This document shows positions 7,940-20,642 of a stretch of DNA of 64,000 bases, in pieces. Where the stretch lies: the IMG/VR virus record IMGVR_UViG_3300005590_000001, positions 62,001-126,000 of that record. The stretch is one strand, 5' to 3'. The DNA comes from a virus. The translations under genes and the position numbers were made by a program. Under the pieces are notes generated by a model, which made no database searches, was not told the DNA's origin, and saw only the letters and a program-made list of their open reading frames with translations. Numbering within the stretch: position 1 is the stretch's first letter; each line of letters begins with the position of its first letter.

Positions 7940-8114
7940 GACTATACCCCTTCTTAGCCTCTTCTTCTTTGATCCATTTGATGATCAACTCACACATTTC
8001 CTGCCGAGTTATTTTGCCGTCCATCAAATCCACAAGCGTAGACAATTGGATCGGAATCATTGTCCCACCGAACTTTTCCAGTCCAGCATCTGTTATTTGC
8101 TTGTATGCTGACAC
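7899..8114 (-). CDS. hypothetical protein, 71 aa (GTG start)
   Basis: The GTG at 8114 is chosen because GGGAGA lies 7-8 nt upstream; an earlier GTG has no such site. The protein is helical (SAYKQITDAGLEKFGG, ITRQEMCELIIKWIKEEEAKKG). Overlaps the start of the zinc-ribbon gene by 41 nt. Unknown function. Confidence 0.5.
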   Translation of the reverse strand: MSAYKQITDAGLEKFGGTMIPIQLSTLVDLMDGKITRQEMCELIIKWIKEEEAKKGYSRARMHKVWSTIES

Positions 8115-8183
8115 AATGTTCTCCCTTTGTAAGTCAGGTGACACAACATTCGCCGATAATGTGTCAGTTGAATATCCGCCGAA

Positions 8184-8378
8184 CTACAATCCTATCTGTA
8201 CTTCTTCAGAGACTCGTATAAAGTCCCAGTTTAAGTTCTGACAGGCTTCGTAGGCAGATTGAGGGTTCCAACCGTGCTGAATTAAAACCTCTTCTGCGAC
8301 AATCTGAGGGACCTGAAACGGTCTCCAAACTTTGCAATTTTCAGCCTCATTGAGAGTCAGCAAAAGATAGAGGGTCAT
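8184..8378 (-). CDS. hypothetical protein, 64 aa
   Basis: ATG at 8378 with GGGA upstream. The middle reads like a UBA-type three-helix segment (VAEEVLIQHGWNPQSAYEACQN), which is suggestive only. Overlaps the preceding small gene by 32 nt. Confidence 0.5.
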   Translation of the reverse strand: MTLYLLLTLNEAENCKVWRPFQVPQIVAEEVLIQHGWNPQSAYEACQNLNWDFIRVSEEVQIGL

Positions 8379-8502
8379 TCAGAAATTCCCGTGTTTTATG
8401 CCGTGAGCGACCTTTTGAGCTAGACCAACCATAAGCAATTGTAGTGCTCAAATCAATGAACTCATAAGAGCTAATAAAGCCCTCTATCCATTCATCAAAC
8501 AC
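8347..8502 (-). CDS. hypothetical protein, 51 aa (GTG start)
   Basis: GTG at 8502 has AGGAG 9 nt upstream. The sequence starts with an acidic aromatic helix (FDEWIEGFISSYEFIDL) and ends basic (SSKGRSRHKTREFL). It is the first gene after a 445-nt gene-free stretch, so its transcript probably begins there. Confidence 0.5.
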   Translation of the reverse strand: MFDEWIEGFISSYEFIDLSTTIAYGWSSSKGRSRHKTREFLNDPLSFADSQ

Positions 8503-8947
8503 AACAAGAAACTCCTAAAAGAAAGACATTAAGCACACTCTGTATAGTGTTGTGTTAAGGGGTGGATTTTGCTTTGTTCTGTGAAAAACTCCACACTCAC
8601 ACCAAAAAACCCCCAAAAACAGGCGTTTTTTCGCAACTTTTGCCTCAAACTCAATCACTTTTGCACGATTTTATTTGGTCAAAAGGCGACAAAGGTGCGG
8701 CCACAAAAACACGGGGCTTTTTGACATTTTGTCATTTCGACAAGAAAATTCCCCAAGAGGGTAGTCAAAATTTCCCCGGGGGGTGGTCTCAACTGAAAAT
8801 CAAAAACACGGGAGTTTTGCACGAAAATGTACTTGGCCTCACTTGGCCTCACAACGGTCGGACTTAGAACGTAAAAATTCTTAATCCTACCCTATCCGTT
8901 ATCCCGTTTGCTTTGCGGACTTCTGTTGTTTGCAGAAGCCCCGTCGT
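8503..8947. other. 445-nt gene-free stretch, probable promoter region
   Basis: No gene is supported. Visible items are a perfect inverted repeat TGACA TTT TGTCA (8722-8734), two adjacent copies of acttggcctc (around 8830-8850), two copies of CCCGTGTTTTTG on the minus strand, and a hairpin just past the stop of the gene to the right (8920-8938). No convincing sigma70 promoter could be assigned. Confidence 0.4.
8920..8938 (-). terminator. hairpin after stop codon
   Basis: A 6-bp stem CTTCTG/CAGAAG begins 10 nt past the stop of the gene at 8948-9307. It lacks a T-tract, so it may stabilise or process RNA rather than end transcription. Confidence 0.3.
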
Positions 8948-9307
8948 TCAGATTTCTTCGATCTGCTTTCGCAGTCGTTGGTAACGAGCTTTCGACATCG
9001 GCCGACTTCCCCACCTCGAAATACTTTCGGCAGTCTTACGAAAGAACCGCAGAATTTCTTCTGATCGGATGTATTCGGATTCGAACATTCCCTGAGCAGC
9101 AGACAGGTCCGCCTGAATATCAACATCTTCCATGAAGCGTTCACGCATTTGCCCAATGCGATTCAATTCTCGATTAGCATCCGACTTCCGCCGATAAATC
9201 CTCAAGATCACATCCCCCGGATTCTCACCGAAAACTTCCAGAAAAACACAAGCTTCCTGTTCCGTATCAGATTTCCGGATGATGCTTTCCAGAGTATGCA
9301 ACTGCAT
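8948..9307 (-). CDS. hypothetical helical protein, 119 aa
   Basis: ATG at 9307 with GGAG six nt upstream. The protein is charged and helical throughout, with an Arg-rich centre (ILRIYRRKSDANRELNRIG) and basic C-terminus (KARYQRLRKQIEEI). No family recognised; a DNA-associated role is possible. Confidence 0.6.
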   Translation of the reverse strand: MQLHTLESIIRKSDTEQEACVFLEVFGENPGDVILRIYRRKSDANRELNRIGQMRERFMEDVDIQADLSAAQGMFESEYIRSEEILRFFRKTAESISRWGSRPMSKARYQRLRKQIEEI

Positions 9308-9358
9308 TTGATTCTCCAAAACTGAACGAATGTGAAGTTTAACACGAGCGAATGCGAG

Positions 9359-9430
9359 TCAGCCATGCTGGATTCGAACCAGACCTACCCAATAAACGGT
9401 GGGCAATGCTACCAATTACACCACAGGCTG
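9359..9430 (-). tRNA. tRNA-like gene, identity uncertain
   Basis: The 72-nt segment has acceptor CAGCC/GGCTG with imperfect inner pairs, the D-arm GTGTAATTGGTAGCAT, and a T-arm with TTCGAAT. The anticodon stem CCCA/TGGG encloses eight nt (CCGTTTAT), so the anticodon is ambiguous (GTT is possible). It may be divergent or decaying. Confidence 0.6.
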
Positions 9431-10059
9431 ATTACGGCAGGGAAAAATTCGTCCCAACCACTGCCGTAGAACAAACGGGACTACCCCTGAATTACAGGAG
9501 AAAAGAACAGACGGCGGAAATCCAGAAGTTAGTGTCCACTGAACCCATATATGTTTTTAGATTCCGAGTGGCTATTGTAGGATTTCGGCTATCTTGCCGA
9601 TAGAAACGGCGACTGATCCCAATCAATCAGAACGCGGGAATGTTGGATATCGCTGGACTCACCCGTAGGCTTTTGAGGATTCCCGAATTACTTCGCCGTG
9701 ATACTGTCTAATCAATACTCGGCCGAATATTGACACAGCACAAAAGTCGGCAAATCGCCGACAAACAAAATCGAACCGAGCCATTACCAAATGAGCCATT
9801 ATAGCCGATTCTAGTATAGTCGGAACATTCTCAAACTGATATCAATCTGAGAAGTCCTCTAGAATACTGACTGAGTAGGGAATCGAACCCTCAACTCGGT
9901 TCTTTCCAAAATCGCCGAACAAAAATTCTTGCAGTATTGCCGCAATAGCTTTTATCGGCGAAATCCCAAGGTGCAAGACTATCAGCATCAACCAACAAAA
10001 TGCACCTTATGCCTTACCACTGATCCAAACAGGGATCACTTATCGGCTATCCGCCAATG
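9431..10059 (-). ncRNA. 629-nt hairpin-rich gene-free stretch, possible structured RNA
   Basis: No gene is supported here. Stems include TACGGCAG/CTGCCGTA (9433-9468), CGGGAAT/ATTCCCG (9635-9685), GTCGGC/GCCGAC (9746-9762), TTCTCA/TGAGAA (9828-9853), ACTGAGT/ACTCGGT around a T-arm-like hairpin (9870-9900), TCGCCGA/TCGGCGA (9912-9961) and AAGGTGCA/TGCACCTT (9968-10008). It directly precedes the tRNA at 9359. It could be a second large RNA or an array of decayed tRNAs; no terminator of its own is visible. Confidence 0.35.
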
Positions 10060-10323
10060 TTATGCAACCGGAATGCCAGTCTCAAAATGATGACTGCAAT
10101 TCGGATTGTCGCAAGTGACTTCGCAATTCAAGCACAGTTTGTTTGCTGCACCTAATTGCATCGGTCGCTGAATCGAGTGTAATTCTGCCGATCCAGCCGC
10201 CGATTCTCTGTCAACAACCTCTTGAGCGTCAGTTGAATTATTGAACGGACCCCACAATGTTGCACTACCATTAGCATTAACAACTGTGACGAACCAATCT
10301 CTATTCAAATGACTATCCAACAT
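10060..10323 (-). CDS. hypothetical Cys-containing protein, 87 aa
   Basis: ATG at 10323 behind TGAGGAG. A beta-rich N-terminal half (DWFVTVVNANGSATLWGPF) is followed by a C-terminal cluster CLNCEVTCDNPNCSHH, a likely zinc site. Unknown function. Confidence 0.6.
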   Translation of the reverse strand: MLDSHLNRDWFVTVVNANGSATLWGPFNNSTDAQEVVDRESAAGSAELHSIQRPMQLGAANKLCLNCEVTCDNPNCSHHFETGIPVA

Positions 10324-10385
10324 GAAACACTCCTCAGAAACACAGCTTGCGAATGTCCGCCGATTGTTCTCTTTTCATGTAAATC

Positions 10386-10407
10386 CCGCCCGGCAAATGC
10401 CGGGCGG
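10386..10407 (-). terminator. GC-rich hairpin 16 nt after stop
   Basis: A 9-bp stem CCGCCCGGC/GCCGGGCGG with a 4-nt loop follows the gene at 10423-11058. There is only GGATTT after it on the minus strand, so termination would be weak. Confidence 0.45.
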
Positions 10408-10422
10408 AATCCCAGACAACGC

Positions 10423-11058
10423 CTAGCTGTCGTCTTCGTCTTCGCCGAAATCGCCGAAGTCGAAATCGCCCATGACTTCGCCTGCGAGATTCGGTGCCCG
10501 CTTGCTGCGAAGATTGGTGTACTTCTTGACATTCTGTCGCAAAGCTACGGCAGCCTGTTCGTACAGATCCTCAGTGATATCGGTGAAACCAATATCCCGC
10601 AGACCCTCAACAGGATGAGCCACACGATCTTCGCCATCAAACGAATACTTGATGGAACTGGCGTCCTTTTCCATCGCGTTTCGAACTACCGTGTTCACGC
10701 CGCTTGTTCCGCGACCATCCACGATTCCGCCGAAGAACTTACGGCAGACCCCTTCGTAGATCTGATTCCGAGCGAATTCCAACGCACGATTCCACTGATC
10801 GCGGAAGATGTTACGTGGAATACCACCCAAACGCTTGTCCGGCAGCTTGCCATCCCAGCCGATCATTCGGCAGGCAACTTTCGGATTGGTCTCTCCGTTG
10901 ACCAGACAAAACGACGCAAAGTGCTGAAGCACGTATGCGTTAAACACTGGCGGGTCAACCGTTTCGTAATCACGAACACCCGGCTTTTCCCGCATTGCAG
11001 CAATGGAATTTTCCAAAGCTGCCGCGTACCATTCCTCAGTCTGTTTCGACACAGCCAT
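10423..11058 (-). CDS. hypothetical protein with acidic tail, 211 aa
   Basis: ATG at 11058 behind TGAGGAG. The body is mixed alpha/beta with conserved-looking Gly/Arg loops (IGWDGKLPDKRLGGIPRNIF, GGIVDGRGTSGV). The last 17 residues are a Phe/Asp/Glu tail (GDFDFGDFGEDEDDS), the kind of acidic tail used by phage single-strand-binding and other replication proteins to contact partners. The body is not a recognised OB fold, so this is only a hint. Third positions are GC-richer than in the first 8 kb. Confidence 0.65.
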   Translation of the reverse strand: MAVSKQTEEWYAAALENSIAAMREKPGVRDYETVDPPVFNAYVLQHFASFCLVNGETNPKVACRMIGWDGKLPDKRLGGIPRNIFRDQWNRALEFARNQIYEGVCRKFFGGIVDGRGTSGVNTVVRNAMEKDASSIKYSFDGEDRVAHPVEGLRDIGFTDITEDLYEQAAVALRQNVKKYTNLRSKRAPNLAGEVMGDFDFGDFGEDEDDS

Positions 11059-11101
11059 GAGAAAATCTCCTCAAAATGAGGTGAACAAAACTGTCCGACT
11101 A

Positions 11102-11410
11102 CTACGATTCGCCGAACAAAAATTCAGACAGAATGTCTTCGGTAATCGTACGATCACTCCTGACTTTCCGCCGTTTCTGTTTCCATGACAATCCCATTGA
11201 GGAACCATCAGAAAACCAATCCGTTACTTCGTCACCGAAGAACACTTTTGGAATGACCGTGCCATTCCATGCCGCGAACCGGACACACAAACGACCGTTC
11301 TCACGAAACAGGTCAGCAATCGCACACTTTTCGTGACTTTTGCCGTTAGATTCAACGATTGTGAACCGCCGGTTTTCCGCTTTTCGCGGGATTTTTAACC
11401 GTTTTCGCAC
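11102..11410 (-). CDS. hypothetical protein, 102 aa (GTG start)
   Basis: GTG at 11410 has GGAG six nt upstream (GGAGAAAACGGTG); the open frame beyond it is a low-complexity Asn/Asp stretch and then the repeat-rich leader. The start is very basic (VRKRLKIPRKAENRRF), followed by beta-rich sequence (GRLCVRFAAWNGTVIPKVFFG) and a helical acidic end. Possibly a small DNA-binding protein; unknown. Confidence 0.55.
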   Translation of the reverse strand: MRKRLKIPRKAENRRFTIVESNGKSHEKCAIADLFRENGRLCVRFAAWNGTVIPKVFFGDEVTDWFSDGSSMGLSWKQKRRKVRSDRTITEDILSEFLFGES

Positions 11411-11646
11411 CGTTTTCTCCGTTTTGTTGTCGTTGTCGTTGTTTGTGGTTGTCTCTGTCGCCACCCTATAAGCTATGGAGGGCACGTTGTCCGGTTTTTC
11501 TGGCAGGATTTGACGCTGTAATTTTGAACACTGTACAAACGTTGTGCGGACACTTGAAAGGTGTACAGTGTACAAGCGTAAGGTGTGCAAATGTGAGGTG
11601 TACAGAGGTGGGGTCGACAAGTGTTAAGTGTACAAATGTTCATCTG

Positions 11647-11667
11647 TCGCGGACATTTGTCCCGCGA
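11647..11667. repeat. inverted-repeat leader element, copy 1
   Basis: A GCGGGACAAATGTCCGC core flanked by TCG/CGA. Near-identical copies occur at 13596-13616, 15164-15184 and, degenerate, 15580-15599, each in a long leader of a leftward gene. Confidence 0.75.
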
Positions 11668-11722
11668 CCGCCTGTACAGTGTACAAACGATCAGGAGAAC
11701 AAATGTTCAGTCAAACAAACCG

Positions 11723-11748
11723 CTCCCCTGTACAAGCGTACAGGGGAG
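11723..11748 (-). terminator. hairpin 17 nt after stop, containing TGTACA
   Basis: An 11-bp perfect stem CTCCCCTGTAC/GTACAGGGGAG with loop AAGC follows the 536-codon gene. On the minus strand it is followed by CGGTTTGTTTG, a poor T-tract. Confidence 0.5.
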
Positions 11749-11764
11749 GGTTGCTGTACAGATG

Positions 11765-13375
11765 TCAACTGTCTCTGCGATGGTTCAAACCACCATGCCG
11801 CCGATGACTGGGCACCTGTCCAGTGTATTGGAACATTGTACATTCGTCCATGCAGACGTGGTCCTCCATTTTCTTCTCTAGACTCTTGTACAGGTCCTTC
11901 AGGCGAGCGAAGTACGCTGAACGCTTGATCCGCCTGAACTTATGATCAGCGGCAATTCCGAGATCAGCGTCGCCGTTCTTTCGTAGACAATTGTACAGTG
12001 CCACGCGGCGGAACTTCTGATCGACATTCGGGAACATGCTGGACAGATGATCAGTGTGTTCGATCTGACTCTGCAAAAGAGCCAACTGGTTATCTGTCCA
12101 GTTCAGCGAATCGTCCATCATCATCTCATGAAGTGGAAACTTGTTCAGCTTGCCGTATTCGTCGTGAGTTCGGCGGACTGTATTCATGTACAGGTCCACG
12201 TGCTTCTCACGAGACTGACGATTCAGCATAGTGTACAAAGTTACACCGATGAACTTCAGGTTTCGCAGTGAACGGGTGTACACTACTTCCTGTGGTCTGG
12301 ACGATTGTCCAATTTGAATCCACGTCGGTTTCTGCTGGACAAATGTCCCGAAGATTCCGGTGGATTCTTCGTAACTGATCGGATGTTCAAGCGGACCTTC
12401 GAGCGAGGTCATTTTACTGAACTGACGTATATATGATTCGCTGCGGGACCGAATACTGAACTCGTGTCCAGTTTCCAAACATCTGAATCGAATTTCTTTC
12501 ACCTTGCGATTCTGTACAGTGTTCTTTTGATCAGTACGTCGGCTGACCGTTTCCATATCGACCACGTGGATTTTACTGTCCACACGTTCAACTGTACGTG
12601 CGACCAGATAGGCTTTTCCGCGGTCAGTCGGATCGAACCACCTGCACAGTGTTGAACAATTGTTCATCAAAAACGCTCGCTGGCAGGCGTCCTCAATATC
12701 ATCTCCGCTGAAAATTTGATCAGGGAGTTGCAACCCACTGGACACGCGTCCATCTCGCTGCTGATCCGGATTGAACATCTTTCCGCCCCGACCATGATTC
12801 GCGGTCCCGTCAGTGGAATGATGTACAGTAGTCCGTTCTCGCATCGAATTCAGCTTGGTGGACACGCGTTCACCCCGCTTCCGGTTCTGTGCATTGCAGA
12901 AATCGGCCACAAACGGATCACTGATCGCACGTATAGTGGTCAGAATCTTGATCTGTTCATCTGTATAGTGAATCCCGTTGTCGAGATTCGGTTCAGGTGA
13001 ACAATTGGACAGTGCCACGAACAAGCACCTTGCAGCACGAAGCGGCATTGTACATCTGTACACTGTCGGTCGTGCCATGAATCCGGTGCGTGTCCTGTAC
13101 AGTGTGAACCGAAGCATACGCTGGTCAGTTGTCCACGCGTTGTCCATATTGAGCATATGTTCAGCACAGTACCAATGATCAGTAACGTCATCGACCCACG
13201 CTGGACATTCGCTGTCCATAGACAGATGTTCAGCCATATCGGCGACTGAACCGATGTACACTGGAATTCCGGTATCTTCTGCCGCACGAATTGTGGGGAG
13301 CTGGCGGAATGCCTGCATTGACATTTGTTCACGTGTAACGCCTGTCATGGAAACGCCGGTTGGGAAACTGTTCAT
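11765..13375 (-). CDS. unknown protein, 536 aa, gene saturated with TGTNCA boxes
   Basis: ATG at 13375 is preceded by GAGGAG with 7 nt spacing; the open frame further left of it is leader sequence. I do not recognise the protein. It has a likely mixed fold with a basic central section (ERTTVHHSTDGTANHGRGGK), a C-terminal helical basic part (DHKFRRIKRSAYFARLKDL), several Cys (CRWF, FRCLETGHEF) and a very basic end (SHRRHGGLNHRRDS). The basic content and the array suggest a DNA-binding role, for example a replication initiator with its origin inside the gene, or a regulator of its own operon; both are inference. The boxes lie in more than one frame, often coding Leu-Tyr. Confidence 0.7.
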   Translation of the reverse strand: MNSFPTGVSMTGVTREQMSMQAFRQLPTIRAAEDTGIPVYIGSVADMAEHLSMDSECPAWVDDVTDHWYCAEHMLNMDNAWTTDQRMLRFTLYRTRTGFMARPTVYRCTMPLRAARCLFVALSNCSPEPNLDNGIHYTDEQIKILTTIRAISDPFVADFCNAQNRKRGERVSTKLNSMRERTTVHHSTDGTANHGRGGKMFNPDQQRDGRVSSGLQLPDQIFSGDDIEDACQRAFLMNNCSTLCRWFDPTDRGKAYLVARTVERVDSKIHVVDMETVSRRTDQKNTVQNRKVKEIRFRCLETGHEFSIRSRSESYIRQFSKMTSLEGPLEHPISYEESTGIFGTFVQQKPTWIQIGQSSRPQEVVYTRSLRNLKFIGVTLYTMLNRQSREKHVDLYMNTVRRTHDEYGKLNKFPLHEMMMDDSLNWTDNQLALLQSQIEHTDHLSSMFPNVDQKFRRVALYNCLRKNGDADLGIAADHKFRRIKRSAYFARLKDLYKSLEKKMEDHVCMDECTMFQYTGQVPSHRRHGGLNHRRDS

Positions 13376-13595
13376 CTGTACACTCCTCAAAACAAGAGAG
13401 AAACGGTCGGCTGAACACATGTCCAGCCGCCCGGCAGACTGCCGGGAAACCCATTGTAGCAAGCTGTCCGGCAAAATCCACACAATTCGGGAAAGATTTT
13501 TACTGGAATATTGAACACTGTACAGACTATCAATGTACAAAGTGACACTGTACAAGAGTGGGGTGGACATCTTTGCACTGTACAAATGTTCTCTC

Positions 13596-13616
13596 TCGCG
13601 GACATTTGTCCCGCGA
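13596..13616. repeat. inverted-repeat leader element, copy 2
   Basis: Same core as copy 1 and extended by one further pair; lies ~220 nt upstream of the start of the 536-codon gene. Confidence 0.75.
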
Positions 13617-13636
13617 GCACGTTAGAATCTGTGCCC

Positions 13637-13660
13637 ACGGGCAGCCCGATTGCTGCCCGT
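13637..13660 (-). terminator. GC-rich hairpin 15 nt after stop
   Basis: Stem ACGGGCAG/CTGCCCGT (8 bp) with an 8-nt loop follows the gene at 13676-14116. No T-tract follows on the minus strand. Confidence 0.45.
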
Positions 13661-13675
13661 TCTTACTTTTGAGAA

Positions 13676-14116
13676 TCAGCGTCGTTTGCGGCGTACTATT
13701 CTTTTGCAATCACACTTGCGTGCGGCGGCAAGAGCGGTTTTCTTGTCGATTCCCATTTCTTGCAATTCTTTTGCTTTGTCGAGAATCGACTGCATTCTGT
13801 ATTGGAATTCTTGTCTAGCTGGCGGGATATTCGTGCCATGATAATTAACCTTAATTTCATTTCCCGCTGGATACAACGATGCACCTTCTGGAACTCCCAG
13901 ATATGAGAATTCTCCATTGTGACGGAATGGTCTGTATCGTTGACGATCCTGTGCGAGATTCGGAAAGATTCCGAAAATCGTATATGTGTTTCGCTCATCT
14001 GACAGCAGATCACCAGCGTGAGACGCTGTGTATATTACGCGTTTGACGCCTTCGCGGTCTTTGAAGACGAAAACGAAATCGTACTTATGGTGACGGTAAT
14101 TTGCAGGAAACAACAT
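13676..14116 (-). CDS. hypothetical protein with basic C-terminus, 146 aa
   Basis: ATG at 14116 behind TTTTAGGAG. The first ~95 residues are beta-rich (YDFVFVFKDREGVKRVIYTA, YTIFGIFPN); residues ~105-146 are a helix and a strongly basic tail (ALAAARKCDCKRIVRRKRR). The tail would suit nucleic-acid binding. No family recognised. Confidence 0.6.
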   Translation of the reverse strand: MLFPANYRHHKYDFVFVFKDREGVKRVIYTASHAGDLLSDERNTYTIFGIFPNLAQDRQRYRPFRHNGEFSYLGVPEGASLYPAGNEIKVNYHGTNIPPARQEFQYRMQSILDKAKELQEMGIDKKTALAAARKCDCKRIVRRKRR

Positions 14117-14145
14117 TATTCAAACTCCTAAAACAGAGAAGGGAA

Positions 14146-14171
14146 ACCACCCGCAGGATCCTGCGGGTGGT
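14146..14171 (-). terminator. perfect palindromic hairpin 13 nt after stop
   Basis: A 26-nt perfect palindrome (half-site ACCACCCGCAGGA) follows the gene at 14184-14411. On the minus strand it is followed by TTTCCCTTCTCTGTTTTAGG, which includes the next gene's ribosome site. Confidence 0.55.
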
Positions 14172-14183
14172 GGTCGTCAAGTC

Positions 14184-14411
14184 TTACAATCTTTCGATTG
14201 AGTGTATTACTTCATGCGGATCTGGATTTGATTCTGCCTTTCCGCGACACTGGATACAAACGTCCAGAATAGCATGGTCGAAAACTTTACCATCCTGCTG
14301 ACTGACTCCGGAAAAACAGACCCGGTATTTTTTCGGGCAGAGATTACAAACGTGGCATTTTCCCGGATACATCCGGTCAAGATAATTCAGAATTGCATCG
14401 TTTGATAGCAT
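14184..14411 (-). CDS. small zinc-finger-like protein, 75 aa
   Basis: ATG at 14411 behind GAAGGTGA. Cys residues are arranged as CHVCNLCPKKYRVC and a later CIQC, enough for one or two zinc sites. The end is acidic and helical (DPHEVIHSIERL). The longer open frame upstream is a read-through of a hairpin and the previous gene and is rejected as start. Confidence 0.6.
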   Translation of the reverse strand: MLSNDAILNYLDRMYPGKCHVCNLCPKKYRVCFSGVSQQDGKVFDHAILDVCIQCRGKAESNPDPHEVIHSIERL

Positions 14412-14435
14412 TTCGTCACCTTCAGTTGAATGAAG

Positions 14436-14463
14436 ACCACCCGCGGGACGTCCCGCGGGTGGT
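14436..14463 (-). terminator. perfect palindromic hairpin 13 nt after stop
   Basis: A 28-nt perfect palindrome (half-site ACCACCCGCGGGAC) follows the LexA-like gene. CTTCATTC follows on the minus strand, so the T-tract is weak. Confidence 0.55.
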
Positions 14464-14475
14464 GGTCGCCAGATT

Positions 14476-14952
14476 CTACAGTTTCTCGATTGCGATCTCT
14501 GCCAAATTGGCATACGGATTGCCAATCCACAACTGAATGCCAGCATGCTTCGCTGTCAGCAGAGCCTGTTCATGCGTGAATTCACGCTCTTCGATTCCCC
14601 CGTTTTCCACAATTTGGACCACGATTTTCCCGTTAATGGGAAATACCATAATTCGCCGATTTTCATCGGCGACGATTCCGAAGCGATTGTCCCATCGTGA
14701 AAAGTGGGTGATTGCATACGGCGCAGCCTTGTCTTGATCCCTCAGTTCAAGATATCCCTTGGCGGTGATTTCGTTCAACTTTTCCTTGACACCATTGACA
14801 GCCATCGGACGACCAGTCTTGTCGTTGGGAAAAAATGTTCCCATTGTCCGCATTGCGGGTGGCTTTCCGTTCTCGAAAACGAATTTGCAGTAAACGTCCA
14901 AGAATCGCGCCTGTCGTTCCGTAAGTTTGTTTTCCGTTGCCTTGCGTTTCAT
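14476..14952 (-). CDS. winged-helix regulator with LexA-like DNA-binding domain
   Basis: Residues ~9-75 follow the LexA N-terminal pattern: LTERQARFLDVYCKF, then GKPPAMRTM (LexA G-x-P-P-T-x-R-E-I), a recognition region, and LNEITAKGYLELR (LexA A-L-x-x-K-G-Y-I-x-R). The C-terminal ~80 residues have no Ser-Lys peptidase signature, so self-cleavage as in LexA is not expected. It is preceded by a sigma70-type promoter (15010-15037) and a leader with repeats. A repressor or activator of phage genes is the likely role; its operator is unknown. Confidence 0.7.
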   Translation of the reverse strand: MKRKATENKLTERQARFLDVYCKFVFENGKPPAMRTMGTFFPNDKTGRPMAVNGVKEKLNEITAKGYLELRDQDKAAPYAITHFSRWDNRFGIVADENRRIMVFPINGKIVVQIVENGGIEEREFTHEQALLTAKHAGIQLWIGNPYANLAEIAIEKL

Positions 14953-15009
14953 CGTGTGAACTCCTGAAAAGAGAATGTTTGACGCGGTCGATTGCCGCGT
15001 TCTGCCCCT

Positions 15010-15037
15010 ATTCTAGCGACTGTTCTAGGATCGTCAA
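15010..15037 (-). promoter_or_regulatory. sigma70-type promoter for LexA-like gene
   Basis: TTGACG (15037-15032), 16 nt, TAGAAT (15015-15010). A hairpin ACGCGG/CCGCGT lies in the early leader near 14980-15000. Confidence 0.7.
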
Positions 15038-15079
15038 CAATAAAATTTTACTTTTGTGCAATGGACAAAATCACAGCTT

Positions 15080-15192
15080 GTTCCCATTTATAGGAATCTA
15101 AATTGTCACTATTGAGAATCCCGAAATTGAGAGGACCATTCCTATTTATAAGAATCTCGAAAATCGCGGACATTTGTCCCGCGATCACGCAT
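15080..15192. repeat. repeat module A upstream of promoter
   Basis: The block 15134-15192 (attcctatttataagaat, then the GCGGGACAAATGTCCGC element at 15164-15184, then acgcat) recurs at 15549-15611. A shorter copy of its first part (ttcccatttataggaatct) is at 15080-15099, ~43 nt upstream of the -35. On the minus strand the block has an in-frame 16-codon ATG-TAG frame (15192-15142). Confidence 0.65.
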
Positions 15193-15209
15193 TTCCTTTT
15201 ACAAAGAAA

Positions 15210-15236
15210 AGAGCATCGGCCGATCTCCGATGCTCT
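15210..15236 (-). terminator. intrinsic terminator 13 nt after stop
   Basis: A 10-bp stem AGAGCATCGG/CCGATGCTCT with a 7-nt loop, followed on the minus strand by TTTTCTTTG, ends the 56-codon gene. Confidence 0.75.
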
Positions 15237-15248
15237 TGGTCGTTTCGT

Positions 15249-15419
15249 TCAATCCTGCTTCCGGACCCTCAGGATCGTCGCTTCAGGGTATTCACTCCGA
15301 AACTTGTTCCGGGCATGCTGCTCGGATGACGCCTGAGTGACAAAATAAATTCCGTCAGCATTCTCGACACTGTACCGGGCATAAAGCTCCGGCCGATAAA
15401 CCCGTTCCTTTGTGTTCAT
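15249..15419 (-). CDS. hypothetical basic protein, 56 aa
   Basis: ATG at 15419 behind AAGGAAAG. The sequence starts with beta-like segments (ELYARYSVENADGIYFVTQA) and continues as a basic helix and strand (SEQHARNKFRSEYPEATILR). It has its own promoter, a leader hairpin over the ribosome site and its own terminator, so it is an independent unit. Unknown function. Confidence 0.65.
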   Translation of the reverse strand: MNTKERVYRPELYARYSVENADGIYFVTQASSEQHARNKFRSEYPEATILRVRKQD

Positions 15420-15425
15420 GTTGTC

Positions 15426-15445
15426 TTTCCTTGTAAATCAGGAAA
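15426..15445 (-). promoter_or_regulatory. leader hairpin covering ribosome site
   Basis: TTTCCT pairs with AGGAAA around GATTTACA, burying the AAGGAAAG that serves the 56-codon gene. It closely resembles the leader at 4813-4833. Confidence 0.45.
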
Positions 15446-15453
15446 CAAAGCGA

Positions 15454-15472
15454 ATCACAGCGAAGTGCTGTG
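15454..15472. promoter_or_regulatory. inverted repeat at transcription start
   Basis: TCACAGC-N5-GCTGTGA lies about 10 nt downstream of the -10 at 15483-15488. The same half-site, oppositely arranged, occurs downstream of the promoter at 16978-17005. It could be an operator or a leader hairpin. Confidence 0.4.
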
Positions 15473-15482
15473 AACTGACACC

Positions 15483-15510
15483 ATATTAACGAGTGAATTC
15501 CGGTTGTCAA
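15483..15510 (-). promoter_or_regulatory. sigma70-type promoter
   Basis: TTGACA (15510-15505), 16 nt, TAATAT (15488-15483), driving the 56-codon gene. Confidence 0.75.
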
Positions 15511-15548
15511 CATAGCCTTATAAGAATTTTTTACTCCCAATTTTGGGA

Positions 15549-15611
15549 AGACCATTCCTATTGATAAGAATATATTCGCTCGCGGACATTTGTCTCCGCT
15601 CGAAAACGCAT
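15549..15611. repeat. repeat module B upstream of promoter
   Basis: Second copy of module A: accattcctattgataagaat, then the degenerate inverted-repeat element (15580-15599), then acgcat, ending ~39 nt upstream of the -35. On the minus strand it contains a 17-codon ATG-TAG frame (15611-15558) that aligns with that of module A (both MR-R--TNVR). Confidence 0.65.
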
Positions 15612-15640
15612 AAACGCCCAAGAGATCTTGGACGAGAAAA

Positions 15641-15662
15641 GCCCGCGGGTTTCCCCGCGGGC
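15641..15662 (-). terminator. hairpin with GAAA loop 13 nt after stop
   Basis: Stem GCCCGCGGG/CCCGCGGGC (9 bp), tetraloop GAAA on the minus strand, then TTTTCTC. A second palindrome (CCAAGAGATCTTGG) follows at 15618-15631. Confidence 0.7.
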
Positions 15663-15674
15663 TGGGTTCAGTTC

Positions 15675-16112
15675 TTATTCCAGTGGTCCGAGTTCATTCA
15701 CATCCCGAAAAATTGGCTGACACAATCGGAATTCTTGCTGTGTGCCATTCGGCCAGATTCTAAACTTCGCTCCCTCCTTCTCTCTGCAATCCATGCATAC
15801 GTTCCACATCGAATCGTTAATGTCATCATTATCAATCATCATCCCAACCCACATTCGGGTGCCGGTCAATCTGCTTCGCAGAAAATTGCGGATGATAGCA
15901 CTAGATACTGACGGGCCAGCTTTTGCTACAGGGTTGATATGGAACCACCGTACCCTGAGACCCACCTTGGTGGTTTCATAGGCAAGACACCCCGCCATTG
16001 CTCCATCAGGATACGCCATCACAACATAGTGCATATCCTGCGTCAGGAGTGATGCAGGAGCGCCCATATATTCGGCGACAGTGTCAGCAACTTCGAAATA
16101 TTCAAAAACCAT
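15675..16112 (-). CDS. hypothetical protein, 145 aa
   Basis: ATG at 16112 behind TTTTTTGGAG; the open frame upstream crosses a terminator and is not used. The protein is mixed alpha/beta with strands HYVVMAYPDGAMAGCLAY and RMWVGMMIDND and a Cys-containing helix (SMWNVCMDCREKEGAKF). A GNAT-like fold is conceivable from the strand-helix order but no acetyl-CoA loop is visible. Unknown. Confidence 0.6.
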   Translation of the reverse strand: MVFEYFEVADTVAEYMGAPASLLTQDMHYVVMAYPDGAMAGCLAYETTKVGLRVRWFHINPVAKAGPSVSSAIIRNFLRSRLTGTRMWVGMMIDNDDINDSMWNVCMDCREKEGAKFRIWPNGTQQEFRLCQPIFRDVNELGPLE

Positions 16113-16128
16113 GAGCGTTCTCCAAAAA

Positions 16129-16154
16129 ACACCCGCGGGTTTCCCCGCGGGTGT
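16129..16154 (-). terminator. intrinsic terminator with GAAA loop
   Basis: An 11-bp stem ACACCCGCGGG/CCCGCGGGTGT with GAAA loop and six T on the minus strand, 17 nt after the stop at 16171. The T-tract runs directly into the ribosome site (GGAG) of the next gene, so there is no room for a new promoter. Confidence 0.8.
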
Positions 16155-16170
16155 CGATTCAGACCCAACC

Positions 16171-16461
16171 TTACAATTCAACTTCTGTCCGTGCTACGGT
16201 GTCAGCATTGAAACGGGCATGAATGCGGGCACCACCCGTTGTGCGGTCAACGCTGCATTGCATTGTGTGTGGCAATGCTGACTGAAACGCCGTGATAAAC
16301 GCGTCACAATCAACAACGTGAAACCCGATCACATTCCGGCTGATCCCGTCAGGGAATTGCAATTCCCAGACATCCGAATCCAGCACGGAAGCATATCCAG
16401 CACGGCGCAAAGTAGCGGCAAGCTGAATTTCACTTCGGTCGTCCACAATAGAAACGAGCAT
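16171..16461 (-). CDS. hypothetical protein, 96 aa
   Basis: ATG at 16461 behind TTTTAGGGG. A small alpha/beta protein: strand-helix-strand (MLVSIVDDRSEIQLAATLRR), then FHVVDCDAFITAFQSAL and a final strand pair. No family recognised. Confidence 0.6.
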   Translation of the reverse strand: MLVSIVDDRSEIQLAATLRRAGYASVLDSDVWELQFPDGISRNVIGFHVVDCDAFITAFQSALPHTMQCSVDRTTGGARIHARFNADTVARTEVEL

Positions 16462-16479
16462 ATCAAACCCCTAAAAGAG

Positions 16480-16501
16480 ACCCGCGGGTTTTCCCGCGGG
16501 T
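16480..16501 (-). terminator. hairpin 15 nt after stop
   Basis: Stem ACCCGCGGG/CCCGCGGGT (9 bp), AAAA loop on the minus strand, then CTCTTTTAGG, which includes the next ribosome site. Confidence 0.6.
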
Positions 16502-16515
16502 GGTGTGAAACTGCC

Positions 16516-16653
16516 TCACGCGAGGTAGTCGATAACTTCTTCAATCTTGGTCACTGTCCACTCTGACAACAAAACCAAGCCCCAAATTGGCATCACAAAC
16601 GCCAGCACAACTGACACTCCGATCAGAATCGGCAACTCAAACAAATCACGCAT
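16516..16653 (-). CDS. small membrane protein, 45 aa
   Basis: ATG at 16653 behind CGGGAG, overlapping the stop of the upstream gene by 8 nt. Residues ~7-30 are one long hydrophobic helix (LPILIGVSVVLAFVMPIWG), followed by an acidic amphipathic end. Unknown function. Confidence 0.6.
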   Translation of the reverse strand: MRDLFELPILIGVSVVLAFVMPIWGLVLLSEWTVTKIEEVIDYLA

Positions 16654-16918
16654 CTTTCAACTCCCGTGGCCAGATAATGCTGACCGCATAATCGGCATCC
16701 CAACCGATTCGATTATTGGAAATCACAATTTGCCAGACTGCTTTGCGATTCTTCCGGGCATACCGTCGACGCTCCACGATGAACGTCTGACCCGCAAAGC
16801 TGATCTGCCTAGGTTGTCGGCGGAATTCGCTAAACTTGAAGACGACTGACCGGCCATCTTGGTGCTTCAATCCCCAGTGAGTATCGCTGGGATCCTGCGA
16901 AATATATCGCGTTGCCAT
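16646..16918 (-). CDS. hypothetical basic protein, 90 aa
   Basis: ATG at 16918 behind AAGGGAA, itself inside a leader hairpin. The protein is beta-rich and basic (RSVVFKFSEFRRQPRQISF, FIVERRRYARKNRK), fitting a small SH3- or OB-like fold, but no family is recognised. Confidence 0.6.
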   Translation of the reverse strand: MATRYISQDPSDTHWGLKHQDGRSVVFKFSEFRRQPRQISFAGQTFIVERRRYARKNRKAVWQIVISNNRIGWDADYAVSIIWPRELKDA

Positions 16919-16925
16919 AATGTTG

Positions 16926-16966
16926 TTCCCTTTTGGGAAAGTATTGTTCGCTGTGACCGTCACAGC
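16926..16966 (-). promoter_or_regulatory. leader with hairpin on ribosome site and inverted repeat
   Basis: TTCCC AAAA GGGAA (16939-16926 on the minus strand) buries the ribosome site. GCTGTGAC-C-GTCACAGC (16950-16966), an 8-bp perfect inverted repeat, lies just downstream of the promoter and could be an operator or leader stem. Confidence 0.5.
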
Positions 16967-16977
16967 ACTGAGCACCA

Positions 16978-17005
16978 ATTATAACATCGGCAGGAACAAT
17001 CGCAA
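16978..17005 (-). promoter_or_regulatory. sigma70-type promoter
   Basis: TTGCGA (17005-17000), 16 nt, TATAAT (16983-16978), driving the genes at 16646-16918 and 16516-16653. Confidence 0.75.
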
Positions 17006-17177
17006 GGCTTTAGTTTTATTTTCTCGTTTGTGTCGTAAGTAGTTGGGACATAACGGCTTAGGGCGGGGTTTTTCATTCTCAAAAATGGTTTTGTGGGGAG
17101 GGCCGGAATCGCCGGGGCCTCAACACACGAACTTCAGCACTTTCCCCACAACATCCGCGGACATCTGCGGGCAACCC
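17006..17177. other. gene-free stretch
   Basis: No gene or clear signal between the promoter and the terminator of the gene to the right, apart from a small stem CCGC/GCGG around 17153-17168. Confidence 0.4.
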
Positions 17178-17213
17178 CAATAAAAAAGGCCATGTCACCT
17201 TATGATGACACAG
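17178..17213 (-). terminator. intrinsic terminator
   Basis: A 10-bp stem with G-U pairs (GGCTGTGTCA with TGACATGGCC) is followed by six T on the minus strand, downstream of the stop at 17246. Confidence 0.75.
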
Positions 17214-17245
17214 CCCTATCATTGTTCAACATCCTCTAAATTTTT

Positions 17246-17440
17246 TTACTCGTTTTGGTCCAAAGTCCTAAAAACAACTGATGATGTTTCATTATGTACA
17301 TACACAATGTCGCCACAGCCCCAACTTCCAGCCTTGATGACTTTGGACTCTTTGTATCCATCTTTTCCAATATAAGAAGTAACTTTGAGATCCTTTTTCA
17401 ACTCTTTCTTCGGAAATCTAGGTATTTTACGCATTTGCAT
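17246..17440 (-). CDS. hypothetical basic protein, 64 aa
   Basis: ATG at 17440 behind AAGGGGAAG, overlapping the stop of the upstream gene. The first 20 residues are very basic (MQMRKIPRFPKKELKKDLK); the rest is beta-like (VTSYIGKDGYKESKVIKAG, DIVYVHNETSSVVFRT). Unknown function. Confidence 0.6.
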   Translation of the reverse strand: MQMRKIPRFPKKELKKDLKVTSYIGKDGYKESKVIKAGSWGCGDIVYVHNETSSVVFRTLDQNE

Positions 17441-17864
17441 CGGTCGCTTCCCCTTCCCCAACGTTCATTGGGCTGCTATCGAGATCATATCCCGGAGAAT
17501 TACCGTCCCAATGAACGTTGTACCACTCATTTTTAGACATAATCTTCTCAGCCTGTGACTTTGATATGTTGTAACGTGCCATTAAGTCAGACACCTCACT
17601 GCCTCTAGCAGCAGAACGCCGTACTTTCTGGGCCTTACAAAACATAGAATAGCGATACTCTGCCTTCTCGGCCCGTGCTTTCGCGCGGACCTTCGAATCT
17701 GAAGTCCGCGCGCCTTTAATTACTGGTGTAGTCAAAGCTCTTTCACCAAGCCATCCACGTTTTGCACGCTTCACAAGTATATCTCTCGTGAGTTCAGGGT
17801 GAATTCGAGAATCTTCGAGCCAGTCCTCTATAGCCTTATCTGCACCAAATGCTTGCAAGTTCAT
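17427..17864 (-). CDS. DNA-binding protein with homing-type recognition segment
   Basis: ATG at 17864 behind TTAGGAG. Residues ~12-50 read IEDWLEDSRIHPELTRDIL...KRGWLGERALTTP, a segment typical of the DNA-recognition part of phage HNH/AP2-type proteins (the G-W-x-x-E-x-A-L-x-x-P signature). A helix-turn-helix-like stretch follows (VSDLMARYNISKSQAEKIM, ~90-110). No nuclease core is present, so it may be a derivative kept as a regulator. It is the first leftward gene at the divergent junction. Confidence 0.6.
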   Translation of the reverse strand: MNLQAFGADKAIEDWLEDSRIHPELTRDILVKRAKRGWLGERALTTPVIKGARTSDSKVRAKARAEKAEYRYSMFCKAQKVRRSAARGSEVSDLMARYNISKSQAEKIMSKNEWYNVHWDGNSPGYDLDSSPMNVGEGEATDANA

Positions 17865-18009
17865 CTTTTCTCCTAATTATTTTATAAAAATTTACCGAAA
17901 GTAAGAAAATCGTAAATATTTTAAAAATTTCGGGTAATAATAAGTGTACGGCGATTCGGACATCTGCCGACTACAAATAATTACGCAAATTTTCAGGAGA
18001 ATATTAAAA
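17865..18009. promoter_or_regulatory. divergent junction between leftward and rightward operons
   Basis: The 145-nt AT-rich stretch holds the ribosome sites of both first genes (TTAGGAG left, CAGGAG right). TATAAA on the minus strand (~17880-17890) and ACTACAAAT on the plus strand (~17970) are possible -10 elements, but no clear -35 is seen. Confidence 0.45.
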
Positions 18010-18162
18010 ATGTCCGCAAAAATTATTTATGGTAACGTTGAACTGGTTATACAGGAAACCCCAGAACTAGAGCGAAGCGTAGCTTCGGACTTACAGAGAG
18101 AAGATGAAAGAAGTGATGATGAACGAGAACGAGCTATTACGTCTAACACAGTACGTAGCTGA
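18010..18162 (+). CDS. small acidic protein, 50 aa
   Basis: ATG behind CAGGAG. A beta hairpin-like start (MSAKIIYGNVELVIQET) is followed by a highly charged helix (DLQREDERSDDERER). It is the first gene of the rightward operon and overlaps the sigma-like gene by 59 nt. Unknown function. Confidence 0.55.
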   Translation: MSAKIIYGNVELVIQETPELERSVASDLQREDERSDDERERAITSNTVRS

Positions 18163-18580
18163 ACAACTTAAGCATACCTTTACATTTGATATTTACGATA
18201 GTGATGATATTGAGCAAGAAGTATACTTTCTTATATTGGAAGCAGCACGAAAATATGATTCGGCGAAATCCACCCCGGAACAATTCTTTTATCACTTTGT
18301 ACGCAATAGATTGATAACATTGAAAAGAGATCGTTACTTCAATGAGCAAAGCGCTGAGAACAAGAAACGGCTGATGACCGCCGGGAGTCTTTCTATTGAT
18401 GTAGAGGATGAGCATAAATTGTTCGCCGATACTAATTTCTTAAATATTGTAGATGAGAAAATAGTGGCAAATTTACGCGAAGATTTTTTAAGAATGAAAG
18501 ACGGCGTTTCTATTCCACATCATTCACGGCAAAAGGTACTAGCTGCTATGAGAGTAATCGCTGAATCGGAGGAAGTGTAG
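18104..18580 (+). CDS. sigma70 region-2-like transcription factor
   Basis: The 158-residue protein contains a sigma region 2 pattern: DSDDIEQEVYFLILEAARKYD (here split as DDIEQEV and AARKYD, ~33-55) followed by FFYHFVRNRLITLKRDRYF, matching the core-binding and -10-recognising helices of sigma factors (D-D-x-x-Q-E ... Y-x-x-x-x-I/V-R-N). No clear region 4 is seen; a basic C-terminal helix (HHSRQKVLAAMRV) may substitute. By analogy with other phages it would direct host RNA polymerase to late promoters. It lies directly before the terminase genes. Confidence 0.7.
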   Translation: MKEVMMNENELLRLTQYVAEQLKHTFTFDIYDSDDIEQEVYFLILEAARKYDSAKSTPEQFFYHFVRNRLITLKRDRYFNEQSAENKKRLMTAGSLSIDVEDEHKLFADTNFLNIVDEKIVANLREDFLRMKDGVSIPHHSRQKVLAAMRVIAESEEV

Positions 18581-19440
18581 TGTCAATTAAAAAAGGGCGA
18601 ATGACGGATGAGGAAAAACGGCAGATAGAAAAATTGATTCCATATCACACATATGAAGAAGTCGGAGTTAAATTAAACCGTAGTCCTAATACTGTTCGCC
18701 GATACTGTCAACGTAATGGGATCACGCGGGACAAAGTTTCTAACGAAAAGAATATTGAAACGAAGATTAAAGAATCGGCACAATTTGCTCCTTTAGCTAA
18801 ACAAATGGGTTCCGCCGAAATAGATGCCGTCATTAATATTTATGAACAAATGATGCGGCAATTTGGATCAGATGTTACTTTCTCAGAAGAGCAGCAGATT
18901 TTAGACTATGCTAAGGCCGCTTGTCTTTTAGATAGAGCTATGACGCGCGAATTAGTATTACTGCAAGATATAGAGAAAATGACCAAAGAGGTACAATCCC
19001 TTGAAGCTTCCTTATCTAAGTTAAAACAAGGAACGCGCGATGATGATTTCGACGAACAAGAAGATTTATTGATGGAAAAGATTGATAGCGCTAACATTGA
19101 GAAAGCAACTGCTCAAGATGAATTAAAAACTATTCGTGCTAATCAAAATACTTTTTTCAAAATTAAACAAGATCTCTTAGATAAGATGAATTCTACTCGT
19201 AAAGCAAGGGCAAGCGAGTTGACAAAGGCTAATGAGTCCCTAGCTGATCAATTAGCATACATGCAAAAGAATCCGGCGTACCGCCGGGAATTAGGATTAA
19301 AGATGGAAAAGAATAGGCTGGGTATGAAAGAAGAATATATACGATTGTCTGAATTATATAAGTATCCTGATGGTATGGAAGACCGGCCGGTATTGAATTC
19401 AGAAATAGTTGAAGAATTAAAGAAAGAAGGCAAATTATGA
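18580..19440 (+). CDS. terS: terminase small subunit (probable)
   Basis: GTG start overlaps the stop of the sigma-like gene. Residues ~8-50 form a helix-turn-helix (EEKRQIEKLIPYHTYEEVG, then LNRSPNTVRRYCQRNGI), which would recognise the packaging site. Residues ~100-270 are long charged helices suited to ring oligomerisation (EMTKEVQSLEASLSKL-like, SADQLAYMQ-like). Position, size (286 aa) and domain order fit a small terminase; the large subunit is five genes downstream, an unusually wide separation. Confidence 0.65.
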   Translation: MSIKKGRMTDEEKRQIEKLIPYHTYEEVGVKLNRSPNTVRRYCQRNGITRDKVSNEKNIETKIKESAQFAPLAKQMGSAEIDAVINIYEQMMRQFGSDVTFSEEQQILDYAKAACLLDRAMTRELVLLQDIEKMTKEVQSLEASLSKLKQGTRDDDFDEQEDLLMEKIDSANIEKATAQDELKTIRANQNTFFKIKQDLLDKMNSTRKARASELTKANESLADQLAYMQKNPAYRRELGLKMEKNRLGMKEEYIRLSELYKYPDGMEDRPVLNSEIVEELKKEGKL

Positions 19441-20465
19441 AAATTTTAATTACCGGCGTTACAGGTCAAGTCGGTGCTTTGGCAGCTAAAAGATATTTAG
19501 ATAATAAACATACCGTTGTAGGTTTACATAGACGCTCATCTAATATGTGGCGTTTAAAGGAATTAGGAATTTCGCCGATTTTAGAATCGGGTGATATCAC
19601 CGATGCTACCTCTATGTTTAATATTATCAATAATCACCGGCCGACTGTAATTTTTAATACGGCCGCCGCTTCTCATGTCGGCGAATCTTTCAAAACTCCC
19701 GATGTAGCATTACAGCACACAGGAGCCGCCGTTCTCAATCTATTGGAAAGTGTACGCAAGGTCGGTGATTGGTATCGGCCGATAATAGTTCATTGCAGTT
19801 CTTCCGAGATGTTTGGTTCTAACTTTTCCTTTGTAAATCAGGAAGGTAAACTTGAGCATTCCAATTTAGATTTGCTAGCCAACAAACAACTGCCGAATGG
19901 TGCTTTTCAAGATGAAAATACACCTTTAGCTGCTAACTCTCCATATGCAGCTGCAAAAATTTATGCTCACAATATATGTGATTTATATAGGCGTTCATAT
20001 GGGATGCATATTATCACACCAATCTTTTTTAATATGGAATCATCTTTAAGAACAGAGGATTTTGTTACCCGTAAAATTACTTCTTATATCGGTAAATTAG
20101 AAGCTGGGTTAACAAACAATTTTTTATTCTTAGGAAATCTTGATGCTAGGAGAGACTGGTCTCATGTTAATGACAGTCTAACCGCTGTAGATTTAATGAT
20201 AGAAAAACAAAAATTTGAAGATTTTGTTGTTTGTTCTGAAAAAACACATACCATTAAAGAATTTTGTAATCAAGCATTTGGGCTTGTCAATAAAAATTAT
20301 ATGGATTATGTCAGAGTTAGTGAAAAGTTTTTCCGTCCGTGTGAAGTTCCGTATTTATTAGGATCTTCTAAAAAGTTAAAAAGTTTAGGATGGACTCAAG
20401 AAAATACTTTTGATGATTTAGTTCAAGAAATGGTACAAACTGATGTACGAAGAAGTGGGAAATAA
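19437..20465 (+). CDS. GDP-mannose 4,6-dehydratase-like SDR enzyme
   Basis: The 342-residue protein is an extended short-chain dehydrogenase: nucleotide loop GVTGQVG (7-13), FNTAAASHV (74-82), SSSEMFG (121-127), catalytic YAAAK (Tyr170, Lys174) and the substrate-binding LGNLDARRDW (near 240). The SSSEMFG/YxxxK pair and N-L-D-x-R-R-D-W are typical of GDP-mannose dehydratases, which make GDP-4-keto-6-deoxymannose, precursor of fucose- and rhamnose-type sugars. It may feed glycosylation of virion or host surface. It overlaps the small-terminase stop (ATGA). Confidence 0.85.
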   Translation: MKILITGVTGQVGALAAKRYLDNKHTVVGLHRRSSNMWRLKELGISPILESGDITDATSMFNIINNHRPTVIFNTAAASHVGESFKTPDVALQHTGAAVLNLLESVRKVGDWYRPIIVHCSSSEMFGSNFSFVNQEGKLEHSNLDLLANKQLPNGAFQDENTPLAANSPYAAAKIYAHNICDLYRRSYGMHIITPIFFNMESSLRTEDFVTRKITSYIGKLEAGLTNNFLFLGNLDARRDWSHVNDSLTAVDLMIEKQKFEDFVVCSEKTHTIKEFCNQAFGLVNKNYMDYVRVSEKFFRPCEVPYLLGSSKKLKSLGWTQENTFDDLVQEMVQTDVRRSGK

Positions 20466-20466
20466 A

Positions 20467-20637
20467 ATGAACAGCAATATGCATATATTTAAGGGGACAA
20501 TTGACTTGTGCCTCAAGATGATTCAAGAATTGCAATCATCTAAGCAAGCTCGCTTAGTTGGTTTGGTAGAAGATTGCTCTTCTGGTAATAATTATGTTTT
20601 AATGTATCGAAACCCAAAAGAAATTCATGTGAAATAG
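20467..20637 (+). CDS. hypothetical protein, 56 aa
   Basis: ATG at 20467 behind TGGGAA. The protein is a short helix (HIFKGTIDLCLKMIQELQSS) and a strand pair (ARLVGLVEDCSSGNNYVLMY). Unknown function. Confidence 0.5.
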   Translation: MNSNMHIFKGTIDLCLKMIQELQSSKQARLVGLVEDCSSGNNYVLMYRNPKEIHVK

Positions 20638-20642
20638 AAAGA

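Follow-up and report, generated by a model that had tools for sequence, protein, structure and literature searches.

A phage gene tiled from end to end with 18-bp palindromes is a candidate multi-site operator for a LexA-like protein

In the genome of a large tailed phage, an uncultured bacterial virus, a 536-codon gene and both of its flanks are filled with copies of an 18-bp palindrome, and the codon choice of the gene is bent towards these sites. The array is real, strong and unusual. Multi-site phage operators are a known kind of element; it is unusual for an entire coding sequence to serve as the platform for binding. We tentatively favor, with somewhat less than even confidence, the explanation that the region is a multi-site operator bound by a small dimeric winged-helix protein, most likely a LexA-type protein of 158 aa encoded nearby, which would silence the gene together with its flanks. 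Positions given below refer to the window, i.e., the whole stretch of 64,000 nucleotides that was analyzed, which covers bases 62001-126000 of a virus record 171,987 bases long.

The phage record has few database relatives. It encodes DNA polymerase III alpha, a DnaB-type helicase, SSB, ligase, ribonucleotide reductase and ThyX, in addition to terminase and portal. The box region is part of a stretch of small leftward genes with a GC content of 0.47-0.50, compared to ~0.36 genome-wide, and the rightward late operon starts at a distance of 4.5 kb from it. This operon is opened by a sigma-factor-like gene (18104..18580, plus strand), whose homologue in the distant relative L054 is found directly downstream of an array. 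Gene order is common to both phages at this place (window 18104-19440 and L054 3388-4789), the sigma-factor-like gene being followed by an HTH and coiled-coil protein that is possibly the terminase small subunit. The segment from 8000 to 18000 is GC-rich and consists of small leftward genes, many of them with perfect GC-rich hairpins in between (e.g., CCACCCGCGGGACGTCCCGCGGGTGG at ~14437-14462). Compared to L001, the only close relative of the phage (96% protein identity), this segment is a mosaic in which blocks of up to 98% identity alternate with non-homologous blocks, resembling a cassette-shuffling early region. Two intein splicing domains were also seen in phage proteins (L002 634-2583 and another protein of alignment A5).

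Between positions 11521 and 13597 (2.08 kb), 26 copies of TGTACA were counted, the outermost at 11532 and 13584. A Markov model trained on the rest of the genome predicts 0.40-0.63 copies for the same length, and training on the GC-rich neighbors, which themselves hold 1 TGTACA in 7.8 kb, predicts 0.29-0.43. The other 170 kb of the record contain 35 copies, about chance density, and none of these are clustered. A preliminary description of this DNA had reported 26 hexamers in about 2.1 kb with about 0.5 expected, sporadic copies elsewhere, and an excess of the variants TGTCCA/TGGACA and TGTTCA/TGAACA, and our counts agree on each of these points. TGATCA, which it had not listed, is over-represented as well; TGCACA, TGACCA, TGAGCA and TGCCCA show no over-representation in the box-class counts. 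One correction concerns the functional unit, which is not the lone hexamer but two hexamers at a distance of 8 bp that together form the 18-bp dyad.

The orphan gene encoding the 536-aa protein (11765..13375, minus strand; ATG at 13375, RBS GAGGAG) carries 44 hexamer boxes forming ~37 dyads, one per ~43-50 bp. Synonymous codons were shuffled within the gene with the protein and the codon usage held fixed. The gene contains 12 TGTACA in comparison to 3.5 ± 1.4 after shuffling, and 39 TGTNCA/TGNACA boxes in comparison to 13.2 ± 2.8; none of 5000 shuffles reached either of the observed counts. Intragenic binding sites are usually few, and here codon choice is visibly subordinate to DNA binding, with 44 boxes including TGATCA against 14.7 in the shuffles (z 9.0; next-highest of 259 ORFs, z 2.5). 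Enrichment in the gene is confined to TGTACA, TGGACA/TGTCCA, TGAACA/TGTTCA and TGATCA among the TGnnCA classes. Such box-driven codon bias is measurable without experiments, and other genomes can be screened for it.

The boxes in the gene are distributed over its three reading frames as 20, 17 and 7, and the asymmetric boxes are found in both orientations (TGTCCA 8, TGGACA 6, TGTTCA 8 and TGAACA 3), so that the constraint acts on duplex DNA. This sharpens the previous proposal, drawn from boxes in more than one frame, of a constraint on nucleic acid. The presence of both orientations rules out an RNA-level explanation. A repeat protein is ruled out as well, given boxes in three frames and a 536-aa protein without repeats; the 15-bp periodicity of the DNA thus does not come from one-frame boxes encoding a pentapeptide repeat.

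The refined unit is the palindrome ACTGnACAnnTGTnCAGT, present in ~50 to 70 copies over the gene and the two flanks (~70 when weak to strong sites are counted). A dyad model trained on the box region, whose in-window counts are for this reason not independent and for which other phages serve as a partly independent check, places 40 of its 44 genome matches of at least 12 bits in this region, and 27 of the 28 of at least 14 bits, with 1 in the other 170 kb. Within the gene, the spacing of hexamer pairs has its sharpest peak at 8 bp between centres (47 vs 24, 54 vs 22 and 100 vs 46 for three arrangements). The dyads there are evenly spaced; merging close ones leaves 32 sites with a mean distance of 50 bp and a coefficient of variation of 0.34, compared to 0.56 for random placement (P ~0.0008). 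Helical phasing (10.5 bp) of the in-gene sites was looked for and not seen. The two best-scoring dyads are found at the start of the gene: GCTGAACACATGTCCAGC (13410..13427, 19.1 bits) lies just upstream, and ACTGTTCATCTGTACACT (13367..13384, 19.0 bits) overlaps the start codon and the stretch between start codon and RBS.

In the flanks, hexamers follow a 7.5-bp period and form exact 15-bp ladders. The left array cassette (11515..11667) is a 15-bp ladder of dyads in TGTACAnnnGTnnGG units with the hairpin TCGCGGACATTTGTCCCGCGA at its end, 5' of a minus-strand gene at 11102-11410. The right array cassette (13502..13616), 5' of the 536-aa gene, has hexamers at 13519, 13534, 13549, 13564 and 13579 and the same hairpin. 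Both cassettes begin with TTGAACACTGTACA, finish with the hairpin and lie 5' of a leftward gene; they are diverged direct repeats. A third hairpin copy, CGCGGACATTTGTCCCGC, is located upstream of the LexA-like gene (15165..15182), and a terminator-like hairpin whose stem is a box dyad, TGTACAAGCGTACA, follows the 536-aa gene (11723..11748, minus strand).

The array is conserved in L001, which keeps all 26 TGTACA. No substitution falls on TGTACA bases between the two phages, where 5.3 are expected, and all boxes together have 4 substitutions vs 13.4 expected (P ~0.006, circular shift). The left flank of L001 has one additional 15-bp unit. Equal box density elsewhere and loss from relatives had been named beforehand as outcomes that would speak against a functional array; what we found is a cluster that is unique in the genome and retained in the relative. 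The 536-aa gene itself differs from L001 by 34 synonymous and 19 non-synonymous codon changes, which points to a real protein under purifying selection.

This protein is basic (pI 8.8) and free of internal repeats, and its predicted structure is unreliable (pLDDT 30). It has no Pfam or significant PHROG match, and no initiator, transposase, nuclease, HTH or other domain was recognized. Residues 135-180 and 424-470 look Myb/SANT-like by eye; Pfam lends this no support, and we do not claim it. Searches of annotated phages, plasmids and viral contigs returned no homologue apart from the near-identical L001 copy, and none was found in L063 or among the loci picked up by the first pattern scan of viral contigs.

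Arrays of the same motif appear in at least three other phages, one of them distantly related to this phage and the other two apparently not. In L054, the distant relative (~37% identical terminase), a dense dyad array is located just upstream of the sigma-like gene. Dense arrays are also found in L018, a different phage, and in L063, whose 130-kb record gives no tblastx match to this phage at 1e-5; short ones occur in L055 and L023. These loci were found by TGTACA-pattern scans, so the hexamer and partly the spacing are ascertained, and the outer AC...GT and the number of sites are not. Recurrence of the 18-bp motif in several otherwise unlike phages suggests a general regulator or a host factor that is still to be identified. 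In L063 (record G018), positions 14489-20800 hold 24 of the 50 TGTACA of the record within a GC-richer region of ~6.3 kb of small genes, with the dense array at 20664-20800 and more dyads across neighboring genes. The array is absent from terminase relatives at ~40% identity with enough upstream sequence, and is therefore not general to this phage group.

A scan of viral contigs for 15-bp ladders returned mostly pentapeptide-repeat-like coding arrays or short tandem repeats among the loci inspected, which were set aside. The ladders in L010, L014, L028, L022 and similar contigs look like arrays coding for pentapeptide-repeat proteins, and are a trap for ladder searches. L019 carries a different TGTACA array at 12984-13110 (TGTTCAacgaaaTGTACAcaccaTGTACAtttgctTGAACA, 11-12 bp spacing, three near copies, located in an AT-rich stretch). 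In bacterial and archaeal genomes, a strict scan for triplets at 7/8 bp gave one locus (L136), a single triplet with no further boxes.

The leading candidate for the protein binding the array is the product of a gene located 0.9 kb from it (14476..14952, minus strand), since the dyads contain the core of a LexA box, the gene is adjacent, and a box pair lies at its own promoter. This 158-aa protein matches the LexA N-terminal winged-helix domain (Pfam PF01726, 7.6e-7, above the cut-off), with the match confined to residues 8-73. It is not LexA proper: the full-length model TIGR00498 scores 23.1 bits vs a cut-off of 110.95, and no autoprotease half (S24 domain) was recognized. The protein is 93% identical in L001 and adjoins the array in both phages. 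Its predicted structure has a pLDDT of 51, too weak for a meaningful fold search. The box pair, TGTGCAaTGGACA (TGTACAaTGGACA in L001), is found at 15055..15067, immediately ahead of the gene's promoter-like -35. It is one of only four pairs with 7/8-bp spacing outside the cluster in 170 kb, is improved to TGTACA in L001, and is apparently autoregulatory.

Regarding the site itself, the refined motif TGnACAnnTGTnCA contains GNAC-N4-GTNC and in this way agrees with the LexA pattern GAAC/GTAC-N4-GTTC/GTAC. Published LexA boxes, such as CGAACN4GTTCG in B. subtilis and AGTACWNWTGTACT in cyanobacteria (PMC3091678), fix base 2 of the half-site, whereas this base is nearly free in the dyad (T, A or G). 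No LexA-type domain was recognized in four records that have the same motif, namely L063 (130 kb) and the short contigs L018, L054 and L055, so that the binder there differs or is encoded by the host. Among the families listed for the phage, no YefM/Phd, ribbon-helix-helix or ParB protein was recognized as another binder.

Taken together, we infer a mechanism in which the LexA-like protein would bind the 18-bp dyads as a dimer, cooperatively along the 15-bp ladders of the two promoter-side cassettes. The evenly spaced dyads would extend binding through the whole 536-codon gene, turning the gene and its flanks into one nucleoprotein stretch. This stretch would block both initiation and elongation until relieved, so that the cassette may be silenced or timed. 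Coating and blocking are favored because the tiling is even, the sites are co-terminous with the gene and its flanks, the strongest sites are at the start codon, and the box pair at the LexA-like promoter is apparently autoregulatory. More far-reaching, and in our view possible but rather doubtful, is the idea that evolution has bent the synonymous codons, and probably also some of the amino acids, of the entire gene towards evenly tiled palindromes, with LexA-type coating from end to end as a regulatory state. Should coating be confirmed, it would give a phage an economical means of silencing or timing a single gene, and would add a new kind of strong selective pressure to those acting on synonymous sites.

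The preliminary description had proposed a multisite DNA-binding system and offered three readings of it. The nucleic-acid constraint is supported, as is a multisite binding system, which the one close relative keeps, and of the three a spreading or multi-site repressor fits best. A replication origin embedded in its initiator gene, in which the 536-aa protein would bind the dyads as iterons and load the phage DnaB-type helicase, is possible but unsupported, and we consider it unlikely. The iteron-like 15-bp direct repeats of the flanks, whose unit number differs between relatives, would suit an origin, as would the phage's own Pol III alpha, DnaB and SSB, the position of the array near the divergent early/late gene junction, and the distance of only ~1.6 kb between the L018 array and a primase-helicase gene. 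However, AT content in or beside the array reaches at most 0.60-0.62 vs 0.64 for the genome, leaving no AT-rich unwinding segment, and the sites tile the whole gene without clustering. The 536-aa protein shows no homology to initiators, and no homologue of it was seen near the arrays of L018 and L055, nor in L054, where the contig ends 0.25 kb past the array. The GC-skew check that had been suggested places the cumulative extremes elsewhere. The partition-like reading is disfavored. A centromere or packaging site, with dyads nucleating a partition or terminase small-subunit complex, agrees with the examined array loci, which adjoin packaging or late genes throughout; this nearness carries little weight, as short viral contigs are recognized by such genes. 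Dozens of sites through a gene are unexpected for a pac site, the phage has its own replisome, and no ParA, ParB or integrase was recognized among the families listed (25 of 48), most late genes and five split ORFs lying outside the scan. We regard this option as highly improbable.

Two further explanations change the binder. A host-encoded protein, perhaps the host's own LexA or some other regulator that recognizes this palindrome, could be recruited to or titrated by the array, which would then act as a sponge derepressing host genes. One motif is shared by the arrays of this phage, L054, L018 and L063, which have no common recognized regulator, and LexA boxes of several phyla have the same core as the dyad. 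We nevertheless think a host factor quite unlikely: a sponge needs neither coding sequence nor even tiling nor placement on the start of one gene, and base 2 of the half-site differs from the LexA consensus, which may not be that of this phage's host. Alternatively, the 536-aa protein might bind its own gene, marking it as a selfish or mobile cassette between diverged direct repeats. Sites co-terminous with the gene and its flanks, the direct repeats themselves, and a basic protein under purifying selection speak for this, but no transposase, nuclease or HTH domain was recognized in the protein, other arrays occur without it, no empty site was seen, and both relatives carry the cassette. Self-binding is decidedly improbable.

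Several known systems share features with this array. The lambda origin lies within gene O, where a short linker next to an AT-rich segment carries four iterons; as here, repeated binding sites fall within coding sequence, whereas in our case the tiling covers the entire gene and no AT-rich segment is present. MetJ and omega are ribbon-helix-helix proteins with operator arrays of short boxes repeated at 7-8 bp. Boxes at this spacing are found here, too, but no ribbon-helix-helix protein was recognized in the phage, and pairing at 8 bp is the only spacing that is conspicuous in the gene, as would be expected of an 18-bp dyad with two-fold symmetry. The operators of YefM/Axe antitoxins have an identical TGTACA core with 12 bp from centre to centre (PMC7730913), in contrast to 7/8 and 15 bp here, and no antitoxin of this family is among the phage families listed.

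LexA/SOS boxes of Gram-positives and cyanobacteria (PMC3091678) have the same palindromic GNAC-N4-GTNC core, and here the array has a LexA-type gene as its neighbor, with a box pair at the promoter of that gene. The present system departs from them in the nearly free base 2, the added outer AC...GT, the concentration of dozens of sites in a single gene, and a phage protein in which no protease domain was recognized. In cluster A mycobacteriophages, a monomer binds the stoperators, which are asymmetric 13-mers spread over the genome in promoters and in the short spaces between genes (PMC9283540). The sites described here are instead symmetric 18-mers inside a gene, gathered in one 2-kb place, and their binder is one that we infer. 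Both systems place many repressor sites in one phage genome, and stoperators have been proposed to stop elongation as well as initiation (PMC9283540).
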